Origin: a virus
Length of the DNA: 31,154 nt
IMG/VR virus record: IMGVR_UViG_3300017717_000038
Span: 1-31,154 of that record
Reading direction: 5' to 3' (one strand)
Part shown: one piece after another, positions 9,275-20,190 of the stretch
Layout of the letters: every line of letters starts with the position of its first letter
Numbering within the stretch: position 1 is the stretch's first letter
Position numbers and translations under genes: made by a program
Notes under the pieces: model-generated
The model's database searches: none
The model's input: only the letters and a program-made list of their open reading frames with translations
What the model was told of the DNA's origin: nothing

Positions 9275-9546
9275 TGAAAGGCTACAAACTAGGAGTACAT
9301 AAATCAAGATCAGGTGGATTAACTAAAAAAGGTGTTGCAAAATATCGTAGAGAAAATCCAGGCAGTAAACTTAAAACAGCGGTTACTACAAAACCATCTA
9401 AATTAAAAAAAGATTCAAAGGCAGCCAAGCGAAGAAAATCTTTTTGTGCCAGGATGCTTGGAATGAAGAAAAGAAGAACTTCAGCTAAAACAGCTAAAGA
9501 TCCAAATAGCAGAATTAATAAAGCTCTGCGAAAATGGAATTGTTAA
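9274..9546 (+). CDS. DUF6321-type basic protein
   Basis: This encodes 90 aa and is very lysine/arginine-rich. The segments GGLTKKGVAKYRRENPGSKL, KAAKRRKSFCARMLGMK and the end INKALRKWNC match a conserved small protein family of marine phages and large DNA viruses (DUF6321). The two cysteines (in FCARM and the C-terminal WNC) and the strong positive charge suggest nucleic-acid binding, perhaps DNA condensation inside the head. The function is not established. It overlaps the upstream stop by one base. Confidence 0.8.
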   Translation: MKGYKLGVHKSRSGGLTKKGVAKYRRENPGSKLKTAVTTKPSKLKKDSKAAKRRKSFCARMLGMKKRRTSAKTAKDPNSRINKALRKWNC

Positions 9547-10394: not shown

Positions 10395-10437
10395 ATTGAT
10401 TACAAATCAATTGCTCTACCAATTGAGCTATGAGGGC
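10395..10437 (-). pseudogene. 5' half of tRNA-Thr(UGU), probable attP core
   Basis: Read on the minus strand, the sequence gives an acceptor strand GCCCTCA, a D arm (GCTC, AATTGGTA, GAGC) and an anticodon arm ATTGA-TTTGTAA-TCAAT with anticodon TGT (threonine). Directly after the anticodon stem the tRNA similarity stops: there is no variable loop, T arm (GGTTCGAATCC-like) or acceptor partner. A clean tRNA half next to an integrase gene is the usual signature of the identity segment between attP and a host tRNA gene. Most phages carry the 3' half, but this one carries the 5' half. Confidence 0.75.
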
Positions 10438-10618: not shown

Positions 10619-10647
10619 TTGCTAACTTAGTTAAACTCAGCTATAAC
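10619..10647 (+). promoter_or_regulatory. Promoter of the lysogeny operon with shared operator word
   Basis: TTGCTA (10619-10624), 17 nt, TATAAC (10642-10647). The 15 nt before the -10 box read TTAGTTAAACTCAGC and match the word found before four other promoters in this window. Transcription would start near 10654 and give a leader of about 35 nt before the gene at 10689. Confidence 0.65.
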
Positions 10648-10666
10648 TTATGTATAAGTAAACGAT

Positions 10667-10684
10667 AACAAACATAGGAGAGAG
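10667..10684 (+). repeat. 18-bp leader repeat with ribosome-binding site, copy 1
   Basis: AACAAACATAGGAGAGAG occurs here and, identically, at 11171-11188. Each copy ends 5 to 4 nt before an ATG (10689 and 11192) and contains a strong Shine-Dalgarno core AGGAG. Two consecutive genes therefore share the same translation-initiation leader. Confidence 0.8.
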
Positions 10685-10688
10685 AAAA

Positions 10689-11144
10689 ATGGCAACAATA
10701 AACCTAAGCAAGAAAAAAACTTACGGAAGTATTATCAATAGAATAAGTGAAACAAGATGTATGTTTCCTGTTGATTATGAAGTTAAGGTAGGTTTAGGAG
10801 CAACTGAGTATAGTTATTCAGATCGTCATGCTTATTCAGTTTGTGTAGTTCATAAAAACTGGAGAAACAAAGGATATGAAATAATTGGTGTTCAAAGAGA
10901 TCATGCCAAAAGAGTTAATGTAAAAACTGGACATGAAATGAGTGAAAGCCAAGAATATGAATATACTCCAAATCTTGATGCACCTGTTCATTATTTAAAA
11001 TCAAAAATAGTTGAAACAAATAATGGAACTAGAAAAATGTATAATGGTTGTACTTGGAATCCAAAAACAAATAGATGGTCAGGAGTACATAGATATTCGC
11101 CTTTGCTTGGACACAGAGATGAATATTTTGATCACACATTTTAA
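10689..11144 (+). CDS. Hypothetical protein, first gene of the lysogeny operon
   Basis: This encodes 151 aa with an excellent ribosome-binding site (ATAGGAGAGAG). It begins MATINLSKKKTYGSIINRIS and is rich in Tyr, Asn and His with mixed beta-type patterning (YSVCVVHKNWRNKGYEIIGV, MYNGCTWNPKTNRWSGV, LLGHRDEYFDHTF). It has three cysteines and no membrane segment. I do not recognise the family. It lies under the operator-type promoter at 10619 and ahead of the integrase, so it may act in lysogeny, for example as a recombination directionality or host-interaction factor. That is only position-based. Confidence 0.6.
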   Translation: MATINLSKKKTYGSIINRISETRCMFPVDYEVKVGLGATEYSYSDRHAYSVCVVHKNWRNKGYEIIGVQRDHAKRVNVKTGHEMSESQEYEYTPNLDAPVHYLKSKIVETNNGTRKMYNGCTWNPKTNRWSGVHRYSPLLGHRDEYFDHTF

Positions 11145-11150
11145 CAATCA

Positions 11151-11170
11151 GGGTGGGGTAAAACCCACCC
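11151..11170 (+). other. GC-rich hairpin between operon genes
   Basis: GGGTGGG (11151-11157) pairs with CCCACCC (11164-11170) around GTAAAA. No T-run follows, so read-through into the next gene is expected. It stands directly in front of the second copy of the 18-bp leader and may protect or process the mRNA. Confidence 0.55.
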
Positions 11171-11188
11171 AACAAACATAGGAGAGAG
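11171..11188 (+). repeat. 18-bp leader repeat with ribosome-binding site, copy 2
   Basis: Identical to 10667-10684. It supplies the AGGAG for the 60-aa gene at 11192. An exact copy suggests duplication of a translation module or shared control of the two genes. Confidence 0.8.
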
Positions 11189-11191
11189 CAA

Positions 11192-11374
11192 ATGGCTAAA
11201 TTAAATAAAAAACAAATAGATCTAAAAAACTTTATGATCAAAAATGATTTGATCTTAGAGGATGTTGTAGAGGTAGTTGCTATTGATGCTAGGTTGATGA
11301 ACCCACCAGGCATATTTCAAATGACTACTAAACTTCAAAAAGATTTAATTAAAAAATGTACTGGGGGTCTGTAA
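11192..11374 (+). CDS. 60-aa hypothetical protein before the integrase
   Basis: Strong ribosome-binding site GGAGAGAG. The product is helical: MAKLNKKQIDLKNFMIKNDL, then ILEDVVEVVAIDARL and FQMTTKLQKDLIKK. A compact helix-turn-helix or excisionase-like fold is possible because such genes often sit beside integrases, but no diagnostic motif is visible. Its stop overlaps the best integrase start (TAATG). Confidence 0.55.
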   Translation: MAKLNKKQIDLKNFMIKNDLILEDVVEVVAIDARLMNPPGIFQMTTKLQKDLIKKCTGGL

Positions 11375-12507
11375 TGAATACATTTAATATTAGATCTGTA
11401 ATTAAGAATGGCAAAAAAGTTTATAGGTATAAGTATTATGGAACTGATGGTAAAATTAAGTTCTTGCATAACCCTATAAAAGCTATGCTTATTAAAAAGG
11501 TTATAGTCAAAACTGATGAGGTTGGCTTTATAAAAACAACTGCATCTGAGTTCTTATTTCCTGAAGCTTATGCTTTATGGACTAAACATTTGAACTACAA
11601 AAGATCTGAGGGCAAGATCTCTCAAAGTTCAATAGATGATTATGATAGCTTTTATCGTAATCACATATCTATATTTTTTAAAGATATAGATATAAGAAAT
11701 ATAACTAAAGATATGGTTAGTGAGTTTGTATCTACTTTAAGAAGTAAGTCGATAAACTCTCAAACATTATCTAAGGTTTTTAATACTCTGTCTGCAATGC
11801 TGCAATATGCTAAAGACTCAGATAAGATTATTAAAAATATCTGTAAAGAAAAAAACTACTTAGTTAATGTTATTATTTCTAAAGCAGAACCTGTAGAAAT
11901 AAATTTTGATAAACTGGATATAGACACAGTTATTAAAATTATTAAAAACATTAAAAGGCCTGAGATTAGTTTGTTGTGTTTGATCATGTTAGAAACAGCT
12001 TGTAGGCCAAGTGAAGCTCTAGCTTTATCTAAAGATGACCTGGACTTTAAATCTAATGTGCCATTAATCAAAATAACTAATGCTGTTAAAAGAGGAAAGA
12101 AACTTGGCAGCACAAAAACTAATACTGGTAAAAGAGTATTGGCCATATCTGCTGGACTTAAAGATAAGATCCAGGCACATATCGCTAAACTGCCGAACCA
12201 CCAGGAAAGTTTGTTTCTTAATAGGTTGGGCAAATATATATGTGTTGAACAGCTTATAAGAGGTCTAGAAAAGAGTTTAGACGAATTAGGTATCAAACTA
12301 CCTAGTAATCGTAAAAGCTATTTTTTCAGACACTACATGGCTACCTATTGGGCTAAGACTAATAAGTATAAGAACCCATTAGATCTTGCTAAAGCTCTTG
12401 GTCATAAAGATATAAACTTTACAATCAAAACATATATCAAACCTTTTGAAGATAAGAGTAAAGAGTTTGAAAAATCTGAGTATCAAAACGAACACTTTAA
12501 ATATTAA
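11374..12507 (+). CDS. int: Tyrosine recombinase / phage integrase
   Basis: This encodes 377 aa from ATG 11374, coupled to the previous stop with GGGGG upstream. An earlier ATG at 11356 lacks a site. It catalyses recombination between attP and the host tRNA gene. Order of domains: an N-terminal beta arm-binding-like region (KKVYRYKYYGTDGKIKF), a SAM-like core-binding region (about 60-155, WTKHLNYKRSEG...NTLSAMLQYAK), and a catalytic domain with R211 (ACRPSEAL), a beta-hairpin Lys region (KTNTGKRVLA), R319 (YFFRHYMAT), H344 (ALGHKD) and nucleophile Y354 (IKTYIK). The histidine before R319 in the usual HxxR box is replaced by an aromatic/serine context. It is the gene that justifies calling this phage temperate. 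Confidence 0.92.
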   Translation: MNTFNIRSVIKNGKKVYRYKYYGTDGKIKFLHNPIKAMLIKKVIVKTDEVGFIKTTASEFLFPEAYALWTKHLNYKRSEGKISQSSIDDYDSFYRNHISIFFKDIDIRNITKDMVSEFVSTLRSKSINSQTLSKVFNTLSAMLQYAKDSDKIIKNICKEKNYLVNVIISKAEPVEINFDKLDIDTVIKIIKNIKRPEISLLCLIMLETACRPSEALALSKDDLDFKSNVPLIKITNAVKRGKKLGSTKTNTGKRVLAISAGLKDKIQAHIAKLPNHQESLFLNRLGKYICVEQLIRGLEKSLDELGIKLPSNRKSYFFRHYMATYWAKTNKYKNPLDLAKALGHKDINFTIKTYIKPFEDKSKEFEKSEYQNEHFKY

Positions 12508-12680
12508 TGTATTGTATAATTTGGAAAAGAAACAACTCTTGGCAGCTATTTACTAATGAGGTTTGGCTGCTAAGAGATGAAGCTGTAGATTATGCAAAAA
12601 GAAATAAGTTTCCTAAAAAGGTTGAGTGGAAAATAGACGATTACAAAAAGTGGTTTCAAAAAGAAAAGGGCGATAAATAA
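12507..12680 (+). CDS. 57-aa tryptophan-rich hypothetical protein
   Basis: It starts on the last base of the integrase stop (TAATG) and ends at TAA 12680. The product MYCIIWKRNNSWQLFTNEVW then LLRDEAVDYAKRNKFPKKVE and WKIDDYKKWFQKEKGDK has six tryptophans in 57 residues, unusually many, in a compact alpha/beta pattern. It is probably co-translated with the integrase and could modulate it, but no family is recognised. Confidence 0.6.
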   Translation: MYCIIWKRNNSWQLFTNEVWLLRDEAVDYAKRNKFPKKVEWKIDDYKKWFQKEKGDK

Positions 12681-12737
12681 ATACCGCCCCATTCATCTTT
12701 ACAACAAAATAAAACAGCTGGGTTACAAAGCCAACTG
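12664..12737. terminator. Terminators between the convergent integrase and XRE units
   Basis: For the leftward XRE gene, CAGTTGG pairs with CCAGCTG (12731-12737 with 12715-12721, one G-U) around a 9-nt loop, followed on the minus strand by TTTTATTTTGTT (12714-12703). A second, weaker hairpin GGGCG/CGCCC (12668-12672 with 12685-12689) is followed on the minus strand by TTTT and, on the plus strand, by ATTCATCTTT. Together they can stop transcripts from both sides. Confidence 0.6.
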
Positions 12738-12750
12738 AGTACATACATTG

Positions 12751-13083
12751 TTAAACATTTTTTGAATCTTGCACATCTGTTTTTATACCTGAGGGATTAG
12801 ATGGCTTTGCAAGATTATCGCCAGGCAGTTTAACATAGCCTAACAATTCTGTTTCAGTAATAAAAAATAATATAGAAGTTTTAAACACTTCAGCTATTGT
12901 TACTAAGTCTATTACTGGAATACGGTTTACTCCTTTTTCATATTTTTGAACCTGTTGAAAGGTTTTACCAATATGCTCAGCAAGATCTGATTGAGTCATA
13001 CCTTTACTAATTCTCATTAGTTTTATTTTTCTGCCTAAGGTTTGGTAAAATTTTATTTCGTCAGGTTTATTATAGTTGTGCAT
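12751..13083 (-). CDS. XRE-family HTH transcriptional regulator
   Basis: This encodes 110 aa. Residues about 14-70 are a Cro/CI-type helix-turn-helix: GRKIKLMRISKGMTQSDLA then EHIGKTFQQVQKYEKGVNRI, with the recognition helix around FQQVQKYEKG. The remaining tail is short and has no peptidase domain. It is transcribed leftward with an AAGAGAGAG ribosome-binding stretch from its own promoter region at 13154-13174, which carries the shared operator word, so it may regulate itself. It could be the Cro-like or CI-like partner in the lysogeny decision. Convergent with the integrase unit. Confidence 0.88.
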   Translation of the reverse strand: MHNYNKPDEIKFYQTLGRKIKLMRISKGMTQSDLAEHIGKTFQQVQKYEKGVNRIPVIDLVTIAEVFKTSILFFITETELLGYVKLPGDNLAKPSNPSGIKTDVQDSKNV

Positions 13084-13153
13084 TTTCTCTCTCTTTCTTT
13101 TTTATAAAGCGACAAGTAGCCCATAAGTTTGTTACAACTTTCACACTAAAAAC

Positions 13154-13174
13154 AATTTAGCTTAGCTTACTTAA
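13154..13174 (-). promoter_or_regulatory. Operator/promoter word upstream of the XRE gene
   Basis: On the minus strand TTAAGTAAGCTAAGC is followed by TAAATT, matching the word-plus-(-10) layout of the other four sites (17 of 21 positions equal to the switch site). The -35 is poor. It overlaps the end of the 37-aa gene, so the early operon and the XRE unit touch here. Confidence 0.5.
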
Positions 13175-13284
13175 TTACCAGCTCTGCTGCTTAATCGTTT
13201 TTGTTCTTCTTCCATTTTGTTCAGACCTAACTTAAAAATAGAATGAGTTACTTTGTTCAATGATTGTTTTAATTTATTTTTCAT
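13171..13284 (-). CDS. 37-aa basic miniprotein, last gene of the leftward early operon
   Basis: ATG at 13284 overlaps the end of the 81-aa gene (ATGAAAAATAA carries both), and the stop is at 13171. Product: MKNKLKQSLNKVTHSIFKLG then LNKMEEEQKRLSSRAGN. The first residues MKNKL recur in the 46-aa gene at 19964-20104 and (MKNK) in the gene at 16970. AAGAAAG serves as ribosome-binding site. No function is recognised. Confidence 0.5.
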   Translation of the reverse strand: MKNKLKQSLNKVTHSIFKLGLNKMEEEQKRLSSRAGN

Positions 13285-13519
13285 TTGAACTTTCTTCTCT
13301 ATTTTCTGATTTAGCATCTGTACTTTCTTTGGGTCGTACATCGGCATCCTTTGTTGCTTTGTTTAACTTAATCCTAGAACTTGTTATTTTAGTTTCTAAG
13401 ACTTCAACCAAAGCTTTATCGCTTGGTCTATTTGAATCATGTGCTTCTTGCACAGTTTCAAAATTCTCTGTTGCTTTAACATTGCAATCTATAAATGTTT
13501 CTTTTAATACTGATCTCAA
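13274..13519 (-). CDS. 81-aa charged hypothetical protein with TTG start
   Basis: The frame has no ATG or GTG near its 5' end. TTG at 13519 sits just after GAGGA and overlaps the previous gene's stop, so TTG is the likely start. The product (MRSVLKETFIDCNVKATENF, then LVEVLETKITSSRIKLNKAT) ends with a very polar tail, ESTDAKSENREESSNEK, probably disordered. The opposite strand has a 92-codon open frame that I treat as a shadow, so this gene call is moderate. Confidence 0.45.
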   Translation of the reverse strand: MRSVLKETFIDCNVKATENFETVQEAHDSNRPSDKALVEVLETKITSSRIKLNKATKDADVRPKESTDAKSENREESSNEK

Positions 13520-13806
13520 TTCATCCTCATTTCTCTAGTTGAATATTCTTTATTAAAAGCCAAAGTTTTAATGTCTGAATGTTGCTTATCACTTAATCTA
13601 ATCTTACGATGAGCAGATCCACCTTTTTGTATTAGGCCTAACTCATAGAGCTCAGCACATATTGCACCGCTTCTTGCTCTTGAGAATTTGAACTTGCTGC
13701 CAATCTCTTTATAGGTAGGGCTGTATTTGTGTTGCTTGATAAAATTAGATATAAATTTTAAAACATCATATTTTATTTTACTTAAGTATATTGTTTCTTT
13801 AATCAT
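13516..13806 (-). CDS. LexA-type winged-helix DNA-binding protein
   Basis: This encodes 96 aa from ATG 13806 (a GTG lies one codon earlier). Residues about 8-70 match the LexA N-terminal DNA-binding domain: YDVLKFISNFIKQHKYSPTY with KEIGSKFKFSRARSGA and LYELGLIQKGGSAHRKIRL. The PTYKEI motif is characteristic. The autocatalytic S24 peptidase half is absent, so it cannot self-cleave. It may bind LexA-like operators or regulate early genes. It is embedded in the recombination operon by short overlaps on both sides. Confidence 0.75.
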   Translation of the reverse strand: MIKETIYLSKIKYDVLKFISNFIKQHKYSPTYKEIGSKFKFSRARSGAICAELYELGLIQKGGSAHRKIRLSDKQHSDIKTLAFNKEYSTREMRMN

Positions 13807-14101
13807 CACTTCCTTTAAATATATTGGTTATGTTATCTGCTGGTGTATGTTGAAATTTAGCTTTTTCTTTTTTTAAAGTTTTTAAAAAATCAATAAGCTT
13901 TCTGTTATACCAATCAGCTTTTTCACAATCCATTATTGCACTATCAACTGTAATTCCATGCTTAGCACCAAATCTACAAAGGTGCTTAAGAGCAGCACCT
14001 CTGAGATAACCTATACTTTCTTCATCCGACAACTGACTCATAATGGCATCAGCTGTTTGAATACTTTTTTGATAATGCTTTGGATCTTTACTTTCAGGCA
14101 T
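13799..14101 (-). CDS. DUF3310 protein (T7 gp1.7-like)
   Basis: This encodes 100 aa. DPKHYQ (residues 6-11), YLRGAALKHLCRFGAKHG (32-49) and DCEKADWYNRKL (58-69) are the three conserved blocks of DUF3310, whose T7 member gp1.7 is a nucleotide kinase acting on dTMP and dGMP. The short size is typical. The function in this phage could be nucleotide supply during replication, inferred from that member. Overlaps the next gene by 8 nt and the previous by 1 nt. Confidence 0.75.
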   Translation of the reverse strand: MPESKDPKHYQKSIQTADAIMSQLSDEESIGYLRGAALKHLCRFGAKHGITVDSAIMDCEKADWYNRKLIDFLKTLKKEKAKFQHTPADNITNIFKGSDD

Positions 14102-14337
14102 TATGAAAAATCTGCTTTCGTTTGGTTAGCATCTTTTTTATAAGGCTCACTAACTTTTATAGAAATATCAGGTTGAGTATCTTTTTTCTTATCTACATTT
14201 AACCATGAAGCTAGATCCCATTGCTTACCATTAGCATCAGTAAATTTACCGATGTAGTGAGGATATTTTACTCCTGGTTTATCATCTTCTTTAGGTTGTC
14301 TTTTCCATAACGCACCTGAATTATTATAATCAGCCAT
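14101..14337 (-). CDS. DUF736-like protein
   Basis: This encodes 78 aa. MADYNNSGALWKRQ, then HYIGKFTDANGKQWDLASWL and the SIKVSEPY block reproduce the pattern NNSGALWK...YxG...G...LaaW...slkv..p of DUF736 and related short phage proteins. These are small beta-barrel-like proteins found with recombination or plasmid genes and may bind single-stranded DNA. Here it lies directly downstream of the annealing-type protein, which supports that reading. Confidence 0.65.
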   Translation of the reverse strand: MADYNNSGALWKRQPKEDDKPGVKYPHYIGKFTDANGKQWDLASWLNVDKKKDTQPDISIKVSEPYKKDANQTKADFS

Positions 14338-14974
14338 TGTTGTTTTTCCTTTTTGTTTGATTGTTTTGTATTTGTATTTTTAGTTTGTCGTATTCTGTTG
14401 TAACTCTTAACTGTTGTATTGGATCAAGTGAGATCGATATAAGATCATCTTTGTATTCTGCTCTCATAGGATTTAATTTTTTTTCAAAATCATTTTGAGA
14501 TTTAGATAATGCAGCTACATTTCTTAATTGGCTAATCCAACCATCAGATAATTGTTCTTTATTAGATTCCAGAACTGCTGGTTTTTTTTGAGTAGTTGCT
14601 GGTTTTAAAAATTGCTCCATTTCTTCAGCAGTTGCAAGTTCATCTCCAAAAAATCCTAATATACTAAGTCCTCTACCAATACTCACAGTTTGTTGTTTCT
14701 CAAATTCCTTATCTGAATTTTTCATTTGTTTGCTTTCACCTACACTCACTAACTTGTCATCTAAATAAATAGATGCTTTAAATTTATGTGAACCATTAGA
14801 CAATTCTGTACTTGTAGTTTGAATAGACATTCTTTCTCCAAAATAATCTCTTACAAATTTTATACGATAAGGAACTGTTAGATATTTTCCTTTAGCTCCC
14901 AAGTTTGCATAATCATTATCATTTATATTTTTTCTAAATTCTTTTATTGCATCTACTAATGTTCGGTCTTTCAT
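14330..14974 (-). CDS. Putative single-strand annealing protein
   Basis: This encodes 214 aa. Residues 26-112 hold the pattern KGKYLTVPYRIKFVRDYFGE, then SIQTTSTELSNGSHKFKASI and EKQQTVSIGRGLSILGFFGDE. This is the 'rigid fold with ...aeTxAiGRaLa.lG' signature I associate with phage Rad52/Sak/Erf-type annealing proteins. Residues beyond 115 are a variable polar tail. It sits between DUF736 and, two genes away, a RecB-like nuclease, forming a Red-like recombination pair. Assignment rests on pattern and neighbours. Confidence 0.6.
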   Translation of the reverse strand: MKDRTLVDAIKEFRKNINDNDYANLGAKGKYLTVPYRIKFVRDYFGERMSIQTTSTELSNGSHKFKASIYLDDKLVSVGESKQMKNSDKEFEKQQTVSIGRGLSILGFFGDELATAEEMEQFLKPATTQKKPAVLESNKEQLSDGWISQLRNVAALSKSQNDFEKKLNPMRAEYKDDLISISLDPIQQLRVTTEYDKLKIQIQNNQTKRKNNNG

Positions 14975-15204
14975 ATAATTCCTTTAGTTCTTAGATCCTC
15001 AATTGGGTTTGTGTACTTTTCATCATTGTGTTGTAGTCCTAATTTTTCTTTTAAAATTTTTATTTGTTTATCTTTTTTTTCTATTTCTATTTTATTATTT
15101 TTTATCTCTACTCTAAGCATCCCATTTTTTTCCTGGTGTGCTTTTTCAAGAGCTTCTAAATCTTTAATTCTTTGTTGCAATGCAACCAGTATTCCCTCAC
15201 TCAT
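14971..15204 (-). CDS. Coiled-coil hypothetical protein
   Basis: This encodes 77 aa. Residues 5-57 form one long charged helix (VALQQRIKDLEALEKAHQEK, IEIEKKDKQIKILKEKLG). There is no other domain. It overlaps both neighbours by 4-8 nt inside the recombination operon, so it may bridge the nuclease and the annealing protein, which is speculation. Confidence 0.6.
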   Translation of the reverse strand: MSEGILVALQQRIKDLEALEKAHQEKNGMLRVEIKNNKIEIEKKDKQIKILKEKLGLQHNDEKYTNPIEDLRTKGII

Positions 15205-16072
15205 AATAACCTCTAAATCTTTTTACAATGTCAGGATCAACACCTTTCCACCAAAATCCACCCTTACGAATTTCAGAAAAATCAGGTCGTACTAAAAGAG
15301 CTAATGTTTTTAAATCACCATCTGCTAATTGTAATTTTTTCTCCCAGCATCTTTGATAAGTAATTAATTCATCATAATATTTTTTAATGCTGTCAGGCTG
15401 AAGTTCATTACAATTATCTGAAGTAAATAAAACTTTATCGCTATCACTAGCATAAGTTAAAAATGGTTTATGTTTTGGAAGCAGCTGATTATATAAAGCT
15501 ATTTGTAAACAATCAGAATGAAATGGAACTACAGGACATTTTTTCTTAGAATAAGAATGGCCATTTTTTGTTTTAGTTAATGTACCAAAAACATTTTTTA
15601 TATCTCCAAAATATTTAGATCCTACTAAATCTATATAAGCTAAAAAATAAGTTCCAATTCTACCTTGCTGATCCCAATGAGTATATTCTTTTTCATCTTC
15701 CCAGTTTTTATCTTTTACTGCTTTAATATTTTCTAAATGATTAGAAGAAATAGACTCTAAATTTTGTAGTATAAAATTAAACTTAAGTGAATCTTTTGTA
15801 TCAATACCTTTAAAGCTAACAAATTTTTTTTGATATTCAATTACAACATCTTTTAATTTTGCATTATGACATAAAACTTTTTGCACAACTTCATGTACTA
15901 TTGTTCCACCCTGAAATGAGCTTACTTTAGGTTGGTTCATTTTTTCTTTAGGAGTCATGACTAGATAATTTCTAAAACGAATATCGTCAGGAATAGTATT
16001 CTGTGATTTGGAAGTATGTTTTAATCCAAACTTTGTATAACAATCATCAATAATATTGATTCGTTTGTTCAT
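15197..16072 (-). CDS. RecB-like PD-(D/E)XK exonuclease
   Basis: This encodes 291 aa. The motifs of a RecB/Cas4-type nuclease appear in order: H60 (GGTIVHEVVQKV), D148 (FLAYIDLVGS), D157-I-K159 (YFGDIKNVFG) and Q190...Y194 (DCLQIALYNQL). It would degrade one strand of double-stranded DNA to feed the annealing protein. It is the first gene of the leftward early operon. Its promoter, with the shared operator word, lies at 16112-16132. No obvious Shine-Dalgarno precedes the ATG. Confidence 0.8.
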   Translation of the reverse strand: MNKRINIIDDCYTKFGLKHTSKSQNTIPDDIRFRNYLVMTPKEKMNQPKVSSFQGGTIVHEVVQKVLCHNAKLKDVVIEYQKKFVSFKGIDTKDSLKFNFILQNLESISSNHLENIKAVKDKNWEDEKEYTHWDQQGRIGTYFLAYIDLVGSKYFGDIKNVFGTLTKTKNGHSYSKKKCPVVPFHSDCLQIALYNQLLPKHKPFLTYASDSDKVLFTSDNCNELQPDSIKKYYDELITYQRCWEKKLQLADGDLKTLALLVRPDFSEIRKGGFWWKGVDPDIVKRFRGYYE

Positions 16073-16111
16073 GAATCATAATTAACAAATGTATAGCTCA
16101 AAGGCAACACA

Positions 16112-16132
16112 ATTATCACTCAACGTAATTAA
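16112..16132 (-). promoter_or_regulatory. Promoter/operator of the leftward recombination operon
   Basis: On the minus strand TTAATTACGTTGAGT is followed by GATAAT, a good -10. A start near 16105 would give a leader of about 33 nt. The region 16073-16186 otherwise holds nothing coding that I can support. The word matches that at 20124-20144 at most positions. Confidence 0.55.
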
Positions 16133-16186
16133 ATTATCTAGGCAAAACTAACTTGTAGGTTGGGTAAGCTTTATAATTTTTTAAAA

Positions 16187-16903
16187 TTAATAATCCCAAT
16201 AAGATGGATAAACAGTAGATAAAATTCTTGTACTCCACTTTAGTTTTATATCCTCAGCTAAAAACTTAATTGTTTTTCCTGTAGATATAGAAACATCTAA
16301 AATATCATAATTGCCATTGCTTTTAGGTTCAATTACACCAAGATAAATTATTTTACTTTTTAAATCCTGGCAAAAACCTAACCTGTTATCACAATTTATA
16401 TTTATTATATTTATAGGTTTAAAAATTCTAATCATACCATTTACAGCTGGTATTCTTGAAATGATACCCTCACAACCTAAATACCTTATTGGTATAGAGC
16501 ATTTTTTTATATTTTTTCTCTCAAATAATTTTATTTGACCATTGCCAAAACTTTCACCAATAATATCTACATAAGCTGAGTTACCTAAAAAAAAATTTAA
16601 AGCTATGTGAGGATCTCCATTAATTCTAAATTTATTGAAATAAGTTGATAAATCAGTTGCAAGTTCTACAATACCAAAATAACCTGGAGCATCTTTAGGT
16701 TTATTAATTAATCTTGAAATTTTTACCCTCATTGTTGCTTGTTCTTTTTTTGGGTAAGTATCTTTTATGAAATCATCTGTAGTTTTTTTATATCTTTTTT
16801 TTAAAAATTCTAATCCCTCTTTTCTAAAAATAGAATGTTTCATTTTAATTCCAATTGATTGAGTGTAACTTAAAAGACGTTTAGTTTCAATTGAGTTGCT
16901 CAT
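16187..16903 (-). CDS. Candidate phage repressor (CI-like position)
   Basis: This encodes 238 aa. Residues 25-75 could fold as a helical DNA-binding part (LEFLKKRYKKTTDDFIKDTY, then QATMRVKISRLINKPKDAP). The C-terminal 110 residues are beta-rich with IYLGVIEPKSNGNYDILDVS and end LKWSTRILSTVYPSYWDY, a style seen in the C-terminal domain of S24-like phage repressors. The catalytic Ser-Lys pair of S24 peptidases is not evident. It is the only leftward gene from the divergent switch at 16904-16969 and would be translated from a leader of only 2-3 nt, as lambda cI is from its maintenance promoter. Function is inferred mainly from position. Confidence 0.5.
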   Translation of the reverse strand: MSNSIETKRLLSYTQSIGIKMKHSIFRKEGLEFLKKRYKKTTDDFIKDTYPKKEQATMRVKISRLINKPKDAPGYFGIVELATDLSTYFNKFRINGDPHIALNFFLGNSAYVDIIGESFGNGQIKLFERKNIKKCSIPIRYLGCEGIISRIPAVNGMIRIFKPINIININCDNRLGFCQDLKSKIIYLGVIEPKSNGNYDILDVSISTGKTIKFLAEDIKLKWSTRILSTVYPSYWDY

Positions 16904-16969
16904 ATATTTACACAGTTAATTTAACTTATCTTGGTTGTCAAGTTAATTAAGCTGAGCTATAACTGATAT
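16904..16969. promoter_or_regulatory. Divergent genetic switch with overlapping -35 boxes and operators
   Basis: Rightward: TTGTCA (16935-16940), 17 nt, TATAAC (16958-16963), start near 16970, the ATG itself. Leftward: TTGACA (16941-16936), 17 nt, TAACTG (16918-16913), start near 16905, 2-3 nt before the ATG at 16903. The two -35 boxes share TTGTCAA, so polymerases exclude each other. A 13-bp palindrome AGTTAATTTAACT (16914-16926) covers the leftward -10, and AGTTAATTAAGCT (16941-16953), within the shared operator word, covers the rightward spacer. TTAACTT (16921) also pairs with AAGTTAA (16940). Confidence 0.65.
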
Positions 16970-17176
16970 ATGAAAAATAAAAATTTCTTTACAGGCAAAC
17001 TTATAAAATTACCTACAATAAAGTCTTTAAAAGAAAAAATTTGTAAAAAGATATTAAAAATCAATAAGAATTTCAATATTTGCTTAAAAAAAATTAATCA
17101 ATTTAAGGCTTATATTTTCTCTTATTTTAAAAAATTACATAAACTAAAACGAATCATTGCAACAAAAATACACTAA
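16970..17176 (+). CDS. 68-aa very basic protein, first gene of the rightward early operon
   Basis: Lysine makes up about a quarter of the product (MKNKNFFTGKLIKLPTIKSL, KEKICKKILKINKNFNICLK, YIFSYFKKLHKLKRI). No Shine-Dalgarno is present and transcription from the promoter above starts at or within 1-2 nt of the ATG, so the mRNA is probably leaderless. It occupies the position of cro in lambda, but I see no clear helix-turn-helix. The MKNK start resembles the miniproteins at 13171 and 19964. Confidence 0.5.
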   Translation: MKNKNFFTGKLIKLPTIKSLKEKICKKILKINKNFNICLKKINQFKAYIFSYFKKLHKLKRIIATKIH

Positions 17177-17180
17177 ATGA

Positions 17181-17384
17181 ATGAATTTAATTTTTATATT
17201 TTTAAGTTTTGCAAATGGTGAAATAGCAAAAATTCCAGTTACTTATGTAAGCAAACAGATTACCTGTCAGGTTGCATTACAAAAAACTGCTGTAATTGAG
17301 CAATCACCAAAAGGTGTTTCTTATAAAGGCAGAAAAGTTGCAGCTCATTATTGCAAAGACCCAAAAGGAAAATGGGTCGATTAA
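17181..17384 (+). CDS. Small exported-like two-cysteine protein
   Basis: This encodes 67 aa. A short signal-like start (MNLIFIFLSFANGEIA) is followed by ITCQVALQKTAVIEQ, a charged middle, and KVAAHYCKDPKGKW. Two cysteines about 35 residues apart suggest one disulfide outside the cytoplasm. It resembles the late proteins at 7375 and 9050 in plan. It is coupled to the next gene by a one-base overlap (TAATG). Confidence 0.55.
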   Translation: MNLIFIFLSFANGEIAKIPVTYVSKQITCQVALQKTAVIEQSPKGVSYKGRKVAAHYCKDPKGKWVD

Positions 17385-17884
17385 TGGAAGTAGAATTAGA
17401 TCTTTATGAAATGACTACTGCTGCTAACACAGGATTGTTGAGAGTTTTTGAATCAATAAAGCATAATCAAAGTTGGGGTTATAATTACTCAGGATCTTTA
17501 ACCGATCAAATGACTAAAAGTATTAGTGGCTGCCTTGCTGAAGTTGCAGTTGCTAAATATTTAAAAATACCATTTGAGTATCATTGCAATGTTGGTGGTG
17601 TTCCTGACATTATTTATAAAGATTTAAAGATCCAGGTCAGATCTCAGCTGCCAAAGAAAAATAATAGTTTAATTATTAGACCAAAAGCAGCAACTAATGA
17701 GATCTATGTATATGTATTAGATAGAGCTCCAAAATTTATTATTAAGGGTTTTATAAATAGTTCAGTAGTTTTAGGCAAAGATAAATATTTGACAGATTTT
17801 GGTTTAGATCGACCCAAATGTTTTTCTATACCATTACAAATTCTTACTCCCATTTTTTTATTAAAAGATAGCAACTGGAATTAA
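17384..17884 (+). CDS. PD-(D/E)XK-fold nuclease-like protein
   Basis: This encodes 166 aa from ATG 17384, which overlaps the previous stop. An ATG at 17351 would extend into it. The fold core is visible: E53 in SGCLAEVAVAKYLKI, D75 in GGVPDIIYK and Q84-V-R86 in LKIQVRSQL. The usual lysine of ExK is Arg here, so activity may be altered. It may recognise DNA in early infection. The second PD-(D/E)XK gene of the window (6612) is a different subfamily. Confidence 0.65.
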   Translation: MEVELDLYEMTTAANTGLLRVFESIKHNQSWGYNYSGSLTDQMTKSISGCLAEVAVAKYLKIPFEYHCNVGGVPDIIYKDLKIQVRSQLPKKNNSLIIRPKAATNEIYVYVLDRAPKFIIKGFINSSVVLGKDKYLTDFGLDRPKCFSIPLQILTPIFLLKDSNWN

Positions 17885-17886
17885 TT

Positions 17887-18195
17887 ATGAAACATCCTAA
17901 TATATATGGTGATTTTAAAACTTGCATGAAATGTGGTGGTCATGCAGATCTTATAGATAAATGTTTAAAGACAGAAAAAATCAGACATTTTTGTGCTGAT
18001 TGCTGGGCATTAAGATTTTTAAAACACTCAATAGCAGCTTATGGAAAATACTTAGATAAAAAAGAATTAAAAGAAGAACAGGAATGGCTTGGTGCTGAAC
18101 CAGTAAAAGAGGATCATGAATATTTAGGTGGTAAAGCTTATAAAGTGTTTTTATCATTTTTTCAGAAAGGAAATAATGATTCCATTTCCAAATAA
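17887..18195 (+). CDS. Zinc-finger-like hypothetical protein
   Basis: This encodes 102 aa. C13-x2-C16 (KTCMKCGGHADL) and a later C36/C39 pair (RHFCADCWALRF) make a four-cysteine zinc ribbon. The remainder is a charged helix (YGKYLDKKELKEEQEWLGAE). It overlaps the start of the methyltransferase gene by 20 nt, so the two are probably co-regulated. Function is not recognised. Confidence 0.65.
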   Translation: MKHPNIYGDFKTCMKCGGHADLIDKCLKTEKIRHFCADCWALRFLKHSIAAYGKYLDKKELKEEQEWLGAEPVKEDHEYLGGKAYKVFLSFFQKGNNDSISK

Positions 18196-18715
18196 AAAAT
18201 ATGAAATTATTTATGCAGATCCAGCCTGGAATTTTAAAAGTTATTCTAAAAAGGGTGACAAAAAAAATGCTAACCAACATTATGATTGCATGGGATTTAA
18301 CGATATATGCAATTTGCCTGTTTGTGATATTGCTGGTTTGGATTGTACACTTTTTATTTGGGTTACTGACCCATTTCTTGAGAGGTCTTTTGAAGTGATT
18401 AAAAAATGGGGTTTTACATATAAGACAGTTGCATTTACTTGGGCTAAAAGAAATAAAAAATCCGACTCCTATTTTACTGGTTTAGGTTATTACACAAGAG
18501 CAAATCCTGAAATGTGTTTATTAGCAACTAAGGGTAAGCCAAAAAGATATTCAAAATCGGTCAAGCAGCTGGTGGTTTCAAAACTTAGAGAACACTCTAG
18601 GAAGCCTGACAGAATTAGAAATGACATTGTAGAGCTAAGTGGTGATCTACCAAGAATAGAATTATTTGCCAGGCAAAAAGCTGATGGCTGGGATAGTTGG
18701 GGTAACGAAATATGA
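18176..18715 (+). CDS. MT-A70-family adenine methyltransferase
   Basis: This encodes 179 aa from ATG 18176, chosen because GAAAGGAAATA precedes it. The ATG at 18128 is less supported. The catalytic motif DPAW at residues 15-18 (YADPAWNFKSYS) is a variant of DPPW, and FIWVTDPFL, FTYKTVAFTWAKRN, GLGYYTRANPEMCLLATKGK and KPDRIRNDIVELSG follow in family order. It methylates N6 of adenine in DNA, likely to protect phage DNA or mark it. It overlaps the next gene by 4 nt (ATGA). Confidence 0.85.
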   Translation: MIPFPNKKYEIIYADPAWNFKSYSKKGDKKNANQHYDCMGFNDICNLPVCDIAGLDCTLFIWVTDPFLERSFEVIKKWGFTYKTVAFTWAKRNKKSDSYFTGLGYYTRANPEMCLLATKGKPKRYSKSVKQLVVSKLREHSRKPDRIRNDIVELSGDLPRIELFARQKADGWDSWGNEI

Positions 18716-19113
18716 TATTTTTTGAAAAATTTGACAAGGATCTATTAAATAACAAGAATCTTACTGCTAATGAAAAGGTCATATATATCATTTGCAAATC
18801 TTTTGAGAACGCACCAAATGGCTGCCGAATTTCACATCAATATTTATTAGATAGAACTGGAATTAAAACAAAGCACAAACTGATTAAATGCCTGGACAGA
18901 TTAACGATGTTTGGGATGTTGGCTAGAAAACAAATAGGTCAAGGTACTTGCCATTATGTTTTTGAGAAGAATCAGATGCAGCATTATATCAAACACAACT
19001 TAAATAAGAGAAGTAAAATATCTAGGTCAAAAAATCGTACCTCAAGAAAATTATCCAAAGCCTTGCTAGACCCAAAAGTTATTCAGATTCATAAAAAAGG
19101 GGGATCAGTTTGA
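18712..19113 (+). CDS. Replication-initiator-like winged-helix protein
   Basis: This encodes 133 aa. Residues 5-75 have the pattern KDLLNNKNLTANEKVIYIIC, then GCRISHQYLLDRTGIKTKH and LIKCLDRLTMFGMLAR, a HTH_36/O-like winged-helix domain of phage replication initiators. The tail is basic (KRSKISRSKNRTSRKL). Tandem repeats begin 2 nt before its stop and extend about 70 nt further, which strengthens an origin-binding role. No helicase loader is found beside it. Confidence 0.65.
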   Translation: MIFFEKFDKDLLNNKNLTANEKVIYIICKSFENAPNGCRISHQYLLDRTGIKTKHKLIKCLDRLTMFGMLARKQIGQGTCHYVFEKNQMQHYIKHNLNKRSKISRSKNRTSRKLSKALLDPKVIQIHKKGGSV

Positions 19114-19184
19114 AGTGTTGTTTTCTTCATTTCGAAGTGTTGTTTTCGACACTTAATATATACCTAAGATATATATACTTAAGA
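19112..19184. repeat. Iteron-like tandem repeats, candidate replication origin
   Basis: GAAGTGTTGTTTTC occurs at 19112-19125 and 19134-19147 (22-nt period). Immediately after, TATATACCTAAGA (19157-19169) and TATATACTTAAGA (19172-19184) repeat with a 15-nt period in an AT-only stretch. Arms AAGTGT and ACACTT around the second copy form a hairpin. Two repeat types followed by easily melted DNA, next to an initiator-like gene, is the layout of a phage origin. AAGTGTTG recurs at 20689. Confidence 0.5.
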
Positions 19185-19195
19185 GGGTTATTAAT

Positions 19196-19399
19196 ATGAG
19201 TAAGTTGATAACTTTTAATCCTGATAAGATTATTAAGGAAATAGCTAAACAAAAAAACATATTCTATGCCACCGCTAAAACCAAAAGAATGGCTAATAGA
19301 TCTAAATATGATCTTGAGAAGAAAATTAAAATAGCCAGGAAGAATTTAAGCAAAGACCGATTCAACCAATATATCAAGGAGATCTATGACACCGAATAA
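19196..19399 (+). CDS. 67-aa basic hypothetical protein
   Basis: The product is MSKLITFNPDKIIKEIAKQK, then FYATAKTKRMANRSKYDLEK and NLSKDRFNQYIKEIYDTE. It is helical and lysine-rich with no motif. GAGGGTTATTA lies before the start. It overlaps the next gene by 14 nt. Position just after the putative origin suggests an accessory to replication, nothing more. Confidence 0.5.
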   Translation: MSKLITFNPDKIIKEIAKQKNIFYATAKTKRMANRSKYDLEKKIKIARKNLSKDRFNQYIKEIYDTE

Positions 19400-19808
19400 A
19401 TTCACACCTGAGCAATTAGATAGATATTTACAAATAGCAGCTTTTGTAGATGATAAATTACCCAATCCTATTCCTAAGAATACACCAGCAATGTTTAAGA
19501 TCTTACAAATATTACCTGATAAAAATACCTATAAAGATTCCGACACCTCTACTGCCAAACCTAAAATAATTCCTACTTCAAGACAGATTGGTATATATGA
19601 TTTTATATTGCTGTTAATGCTCCGTACAAAGCCACAGACAAGAGAACTGGTCTATCTTAAGAACTTCCCTCACACTAAAAGTTACAGATCTTTAAAAAGG
19701 CTCTACTTAGATTGTAGTCATGAAAAATTAAGATATATGTATAAGAAAGCATTATTAGAAGCTTGTAAAATTGCTAACATACATTTTAAAGAATTTATAA
19801 ATTTATAA
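19386..19808 (+). CDS. Hypothetical protein, possibly DUF6362-like
   Basis: This encodes 140 aa. The C-terminal half RQIGIYDFILLLMLRTKPQT, RELVYLKNFPHTKSYRSL and LRYMYKKALLEACKIANIHF resembles a small helical protein family in alphaproteobacterial phages (DUF6362) that may bind DNA. The N-terminal half is poorly conserved in appearance. Weak assignment. It is the last gene of the rightward early operon. Confidence 0.5.
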   Translation: MTPNKFTPEQLDRYLQIAAFVDDKLPNPIPKNTPAMFKILQILPDKNTYKDSDTSTAKPKIIPTSRQIGIYDFILLLMLRTKPQTRELVYLKNFPHTKSYRSLKRLYLDCSHEKLRYMYKKALLEACKIANIHFKEFINL

Positions 19809-19853
19809 AATATTTATTTGACAAGTTTACGTTTTTAGAGGAGAAAAAAGATA

Positions 19854-19870
19854 CACTACAAATAGTAGTG
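19854..19870 (+). terminator. Weak hairpin terminator after the rightward early operon
   Basis: CACTAC (19854-19859) pairs with GTAGTG (19865-19870) around AAATA, followed by AATTTTATATTCTTT. This is a modest terminator for transcripts ending at 19808. Confidence 0.4.
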
Positions 19871-19907
19871 AATTTTATATTCTTTCTATTAGTAGTTTTT
19901 TTTCATT

Positions 19908-19960
19908 TTAGGGCAAATAATCTTATTTAAACTCTCTCTTTTTTAAGATTAATGCCCTAA
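19908..19960. other. Long stem-loop, possible terminator or small RNA element
   Basis: TTAGGGCA (19908-19915) pairs with TGCCCTAA (19953-19960), and TAATCTTA (19918-19925) pairs with TAAGATTA (19944-19951), with a small internal loop, giving 16 bp. The 18-nt loop on the plus strand is pyrimidine-rich and contains CTCTCTCTTTTTT. No T-run follows on either strand. It lies between two convergent units (19808 and 19964). Confidence 0.6.
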
Positions 19961-19963
19961 GTC

Positions 19964-20104
19964 CTAATTACACTCTATTGGCTTAAACTCTTGTATTTTG
20001 TGCTTTTTTTGAAGTTTAGGATCTTTTAATATTTGTTTTAGCTTATCTTTTCTCTGATAAACTTTCAAAATATTCAATTTAACAATATTTAACTTATTTT
20101 TCAT
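19964..20104 (-). CDS. 46-aa basic protein with its own operator-type promoter
   Basis: ATG at 20104 follows AGGAG at a good distance (TAGGAGATAATATG), and the stop TAG is at 19964. The product MKNKLNIVKLNILKVYQRKD, KLKQILKDPKLQKKHK and IQEFKPIECN is lysine-rich with one Cys near the end. It is the only leftward gene in this part of the genome. The promoter word at 20124-20144 is shared with the key regulatory units, so it may be a small regulator active with the lysogeny genes. No family is recognised. Confidence 0.55.
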   Translation of the reverse strand: MKNKLNIVKLNILKVYQRKDKLKQILKDPKLQKKHKIQEFKPIECN

Positions 20105-20123
20105 ATTATCTCCTATTGATTCG

Positions 20124-20144
20124 CTTATCACTCAGCTTAACTAA
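20124..20144 (-). promoter_or_regulatory. Promoter/operator of the 46-aa gene, near the late genes
   Basis: On the minus strand TTAGTTAAGCTGAGT is followed by GATAAG as -10. The same DNA lies 47-67 nt before the small terminase ATG on the plus strand, where TTATCA (20125-20130), 16 nt and TAATAT (20147-20152) give a weak late promoter. A protein bound here could repress both directions. Confidence 0.5.
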
Positions 20145-20190
20145 GATAATATTGAATGTAAACCAATTAACAACACAGAATTTAACGAAA

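Follow-up and report, generated by a model that had tools for sequence, protein, structure and literature searches.

Does a word that recurs at several promoters of a viral genome form one operator set, and which protein reads it? A preliminary description of a 31 kb viral record (31,154 nt, hereafter the window) reported such a word before five promoters and suggested that one regulator, the product of gene 16187 or that of gene 12751, controls them all. The window carries terminase, integrase, recombination and structural genes. The most likely host is SAR11, because the nearest cultured match of the terminase is Pelagibacter phage HTVC106P (58% identity), and a 38-nt piece of the 5′ half of tRNA-Thr(TGT) has exact matches in many Pelagibacteraceae genomes. 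This half of the tRNA gene (10395-10437, -) adjoins the integrase operon and is the probable attP core; ARAGORN calls a tRNA-Thr(tgt) at the corresponding place in a relative (L252). SAR11 bacteria are among the most abundant in the sea, and their lysogeny is poorly understood. Among the open-access papers searched, a set without the principal study of SAR11 lysogeny (Morris et al., 2020), none was found to describe operators of temperate pelagiphages.

Proposed operator sites in the window

All five 21-mers of the preliminary description match the window letter for letter at their coordinates and strands. A matrix trained on these five sites ranks them 1-5 in the window; under leave-one-out testing the 15-mers ranked 1-9 of 62,280 and the 21-mers 2-6. 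Such a matrix is circular, being trained on its own sites, so a matrix built from relatives only provides a useful independent test. This was made from 22 distinct, hand-aligned sites of a related clade (G2, see below), none from the window. Among ~62,000 window positions, the sites starting at 20144 (R4), 16132 (R3), 10627 (R1) and 16943 (R2) took ranks 1, 2, 3 and 9, respectively. These four are non-coding and are supported together as one operator set. The fifth word, which precedes the XRE gene (13160-13174, -), ranked 2257 with the relatives' matrix and was rejected as an operator; relatives show no counterpart before their XRE gene.

With the relatives' matrix, five coding matches rank between R1 and R2, all scoring lower than R1. 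When the R1 sites were left out of the training set, R3 and R4 kept the first two ranks and R1 and R2 moved to 132 and 315, so the R1/R2 word of the window is somewhat unlike the R2/R3 word of its relatives. The window version reads ..GAGCTATAA or ..CAGCTATAA; the relatives' R2/R3 version is ..GAGTGATAA, which is also carried by R3 and R4 of the window. The top coding match of the self-trained 21-mer matrix (17.9) lies at 9515-9529 (+), inside the 9274-9546 gene. Consensus promoter scans gave counts no higher than in shuffles, and an exact-pattern scan of viral contigs found a single near-identical contig and no others.

At R1, the operator TTAAACTCAGCTATAA (10631-10646, +) sits in the integrase-operon promoter, which is made up of a -35 box TTGCTA (10619-10624), 17 nt and a -10 box TATAAC (10642-10647). 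At R2, TTAAGCTGAGCTATAA (16947-16962, +) lies in the promoter for rightward early transcription, which runs divergently from the repressor gene; its boxes are TTGTCA (16935-16940) and TATAAC (16958-16963), again 17 nt apart. In both cases the word occupies the spacer and extends into the -10 box, and the claim that it stands directly 5′ of the -10 box is correct here. It fails at R3, where the operator TTACGTTGAGTGATAA (16113-16128, -) lies about 60 nt behind the repressor gene, between it and an exonuclease-like gene, and a short way before the -35 box TTGCCT (16107-16102; -10 about 16084-16079). The exonuclease-like gene (15197-16072, -) is the first of the leftward recombination operon; it is assigned by position and weak matches only, among them a weak tblastn match of its product to a pelagiphage "putative nuclease." The GATAAT taken earlier for the R3 -10 box is instead the right arm of the operator, because relatives have a conserved order of operator, 5 nt, TTGC or TTGA (-35), 16-18 nt, -10 box, exonuclease-like start codon, with the start codon 34-39 nt beyond TTGC/TTGA. 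The start of the operator in these relatives falls within 6 nt of the end of the repressor stop codon, on either side. Transcripts from R3 of the relatives, and those of the window genes starting at 16072 and 16970, are probably leaderless because only ~5-10 nt separate the -10 box from the ATG.

The R4 operator TTAAGCTGAGTGATAA (20125-20140, -) lies in the interval between the small terminase gene and a 46-aa gene (20104-19964, -), upstream of the latter. Relatives have their R4 operator within the spacer of a promoter farther upstream, a place taken in the window by a probable second site, TAATATTGAATGTAAA (20147-20162, +), which three of the relatives' matrices rank 14, 6 and 3. The word originally reported lies just downstream of it.

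Clade-specific words in related phages

Searching viral contigs with the repressor and terminase recovered 94 loci at which the repressor had a match, or 55 after removal of near-copies, the window included. Their gene order is that of the window. Three clades comprising 46 phages were defined, and training sites chosen, after inspection of the loci, on contigs that are fragments: G2 (n = 18), G5 (n = 15) and G6 (n = 13), whose repressors are about 60%, 30% and 40% identical to that of the window, respectively. The homologous promoters of these 46 contigs carry a clade-specific word of the form TTA-N10/11-TAA. At R3, this is TTATCATTGAGTGATAA or TTAACATTGAGTGCTAA in G2, TTAGCGATAGATTATAA or TTATAGATAATTTATAA in G5 and TTAACACCAGATTAA in G6.

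A matrix derived from the R3 sites of one clade finds its matches at R2 and R4 there, and not in the other clades. Mean R2 scores are 10.1, 12.1 and 11.2 within the three clades vs. 0.4-3.8 for other clades, and once the R3 region is masked, R2 has a median genome-wide rank of 2, 2 and 3, against 31-50 by chance. A phage is fitted best by the matrix of its own repressor clade in 45 of 46 cases at R2 and in 17 of 21 at R4. R2 and R3 flank the repressor gene and their co-variation with it is in part linkage, so R4 provides the cleaner evidence. At R1, the promoter and its word are kept by alignment in six distinct G2-type relatives (L193, L199, L195, L186, L191, and L183). A clade-matrix test of R1, covering up to 1,500 nt upstream of the integrase, found the own clade best in only 7 of 16 phages. 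Support for R1 comes from the alignment and from the relatives'-matrix rank; the clade-matrix test adds none.

Three contigs have no repressor match at this place. In one (L110), the exonuclease promoter is kept and the operator is gone (best score 8.3, vs. 18.4-22.9 in its clade). In L156, the repressor is absent and a hybrid site stands where the switch region joins the exonuclease promoter; here (L156:3880-4340) the right-hand portion of the switch region directly adjoins the exonuclease promoter region, as though the repressor had been deleted naturally. The third (L158) has no clear site. The repressor frame of a further contig, L207, stops at 176 aa, compared with 236 aa in its near relative L206, and appears truncated.

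The 16187 product and other candidate readers

If the word varies by clade, so must its reader. This fits the 16187 product (16187-16903, -; 238 aa), whose predicted recognition helix is 0.90 identical within clades and 0.42 between them. The protein is predicted to have an N-terminal helix-turn-helix and a C-terminal LexA/CI-like domain, as in CI/LexA-type phage repressors. Its AlphaFold2 model (pLDDT 83.5, pTM 0.65) finds lambda CI in Foldseek with an E-value of 1.4e-3 and a probability of 1.00, and nothing below 1e-3; residues ~110-235 of the model give Z-scores of 8-9.5 to LexA, lambda CI and 186 CI. No match was found in Pfam or PHROGs at E 0.1, libraries that cover described families only, and no relatives were found among 50,697 phage records or in bacterial genomes. 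Self-cleavage seems unlikely to be a trait of the family because residue 118, the likely LexA serine position in an alignment that did not locate the lysine of the dyad, is serine in the window and part of G2 and isoleucine, leucine or phenylalanine in others.

Could the XRE protein (12751-13083, -; Pfam HTH_3, 3.3e-12) read the word, alone or in Cro-like competition with the 16187 product? In its favour, it has an HTH_3 domain and is encoded in the lysogeny region of this very phage, and in lambda Cro and CI use common operators. However, its recognition helix (TFQQ[IV]QKYEKG) is almost identical across clades whose words are completely different (0.82 identity within clades, 0.80 between), and the window XRE protein is nearest to clade G5 whereas the window word is G2-like. 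Nor is the site in front of its own gene kept in relatives. The XRE tree partly conflicts with the repressor clades, although agreement between them is not significantly rejected (p-AU 0.14 for G2), and this conflict was dropped as proof against the XRE protein. Of the two regulators named in the preliminary description, 16187 is the likely one, and a part for 12751 in reading the word seems improbable.

A different possibility is that no phage regulator reads the word, which would instead be a promoter element for a host sigma factor, as part of the spacer or as an extended -10 motif. The word does abut the -10 box at R1 and R2, and its TAA arm resembles one. A host element would be uniform across clades, whereas these words are clade-specific, and the R3 word lies outside the promoter, at a fixed 5 nt from TTGC/A; a sigma-factor element is therefore very hard to credit. 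Chance likeness of promoter-near DNA deserves thought in a genome of 69% A+T, where ungapped 16-mer match counts between R2 and R3 are hardly above background (13.25 within phages vs. 12.43 between), a measure too weak for such AT-rich DNA, and where the fifth site looks like chance. The independent matrix ranks, the genome-wide ranks in relatives and the clade specificity nevertheless make chance the most remote of these readings.

Comparative data give good support to a single regulator that reads one word at four promoters, those of the switch, the integrase operon, the recombination operon and the small gene. From the sites, their clade-specific recurrence, their co-variation with the repressor and its predicted fold, we infer binding, repression and a role in lysogeny: the word is most likely the operator of a CI-like lysogeny repressor, the 16187 product.

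Proposed regulon and comparison with known systems

The 16187 product would bind a pseudo-palindrome TTA-N10-TAA, in the window about TTAARCTSAGYKATAA, at the early rightward promoter (R2), the integrase operon (R1), the small gene (R4) and the point where its own gene gives way to the recombination operon (R3). Bound repressor would cover the spacer and the -10 box of the R1 and R2 promoters and so exclude RNA polymerase. The blocking of promoter spacers envisaged earlier fits these two promoters, and R4 in relatives; it does not fit R3, whose operator precedes the -35 box and is near the 3′ end of the repressor gene.

How might a repressor act at R3? Bound upstream of the -35 box, and in relatives close behind its own gene, it may block the promoter of the recombination operon, and perhaps also read-through from the repressor transcript. 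The latter is proposed because no terminator-like site was found between the repressor and exonuclease-like genes in the window or in L195; a block to elongation at R3 may exist, as a conjecture from gene layout. It is a tentative and rather doubtful suggestion that the bound repressor has a double duty here, silencing the recombination-operon promoter and halting the entry of its own transcript in place of the missing terminator.

In lambda and 186, the CI repressor gene is divergent from the early lytic promoter and operators overlap promoters. The window shares this arrangement, and its repressor the (here predicted) helix-turn-helix and LexA/CI-type C-terminal fold. It differs in that the repressor has no sequence-family match and in that single sites are dispersed over four promoters, in contrast to the clustered operator set of lambda and 186. 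The stoperators of cluster A mycobacteriophages such as L5 and Bxb1 also lie away from a single switch, and their motifs drift with the repressor and decide immunity (PMC6550527). Cluster A phages, however, have up to 30 sites, whereas the window has about four or five, pseudo-palindromic and mostly at promoters; the many one-orientation sites of L5-like stoperators were not seen, and only promoter-linked sites stand out. Pelagibacter phages such as HTVC106P, the source of the closest cultured terminase, have the SAR11 host that is likely for the window, but no relative of the 16187 repressor was found among the phage records searched.

These sites probably form a genuine immunity regulon, of a type already known, in phages that have been little studied. 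Its logic would be that of classic phage immunity, with proteins, words and a host group that are new to us. If this is correct, repressor-operator pairs are predicted for several clades of temperate SAR11 phages, and immunity groups could therefore be predicted from metagenomes and put to the test.

Two further small genes of this region were noted. A 97-aa protein (13516-13809), kept in relatives, matches LexA_DNA_bind barely over the Pfam cut-off (24.8 vs. 23.7 bits). In many relatives the early operon opens with a small putative metalloprotease containing an HExxH (HEIAHxIA-like) motif. Its gene is the first rightward gene beside the repressor in L116, L129, L143, L112 and L012, and is also present at L110:3633-3956 and L158:5240-5569; the window has a 68-aa gene at this position instead.
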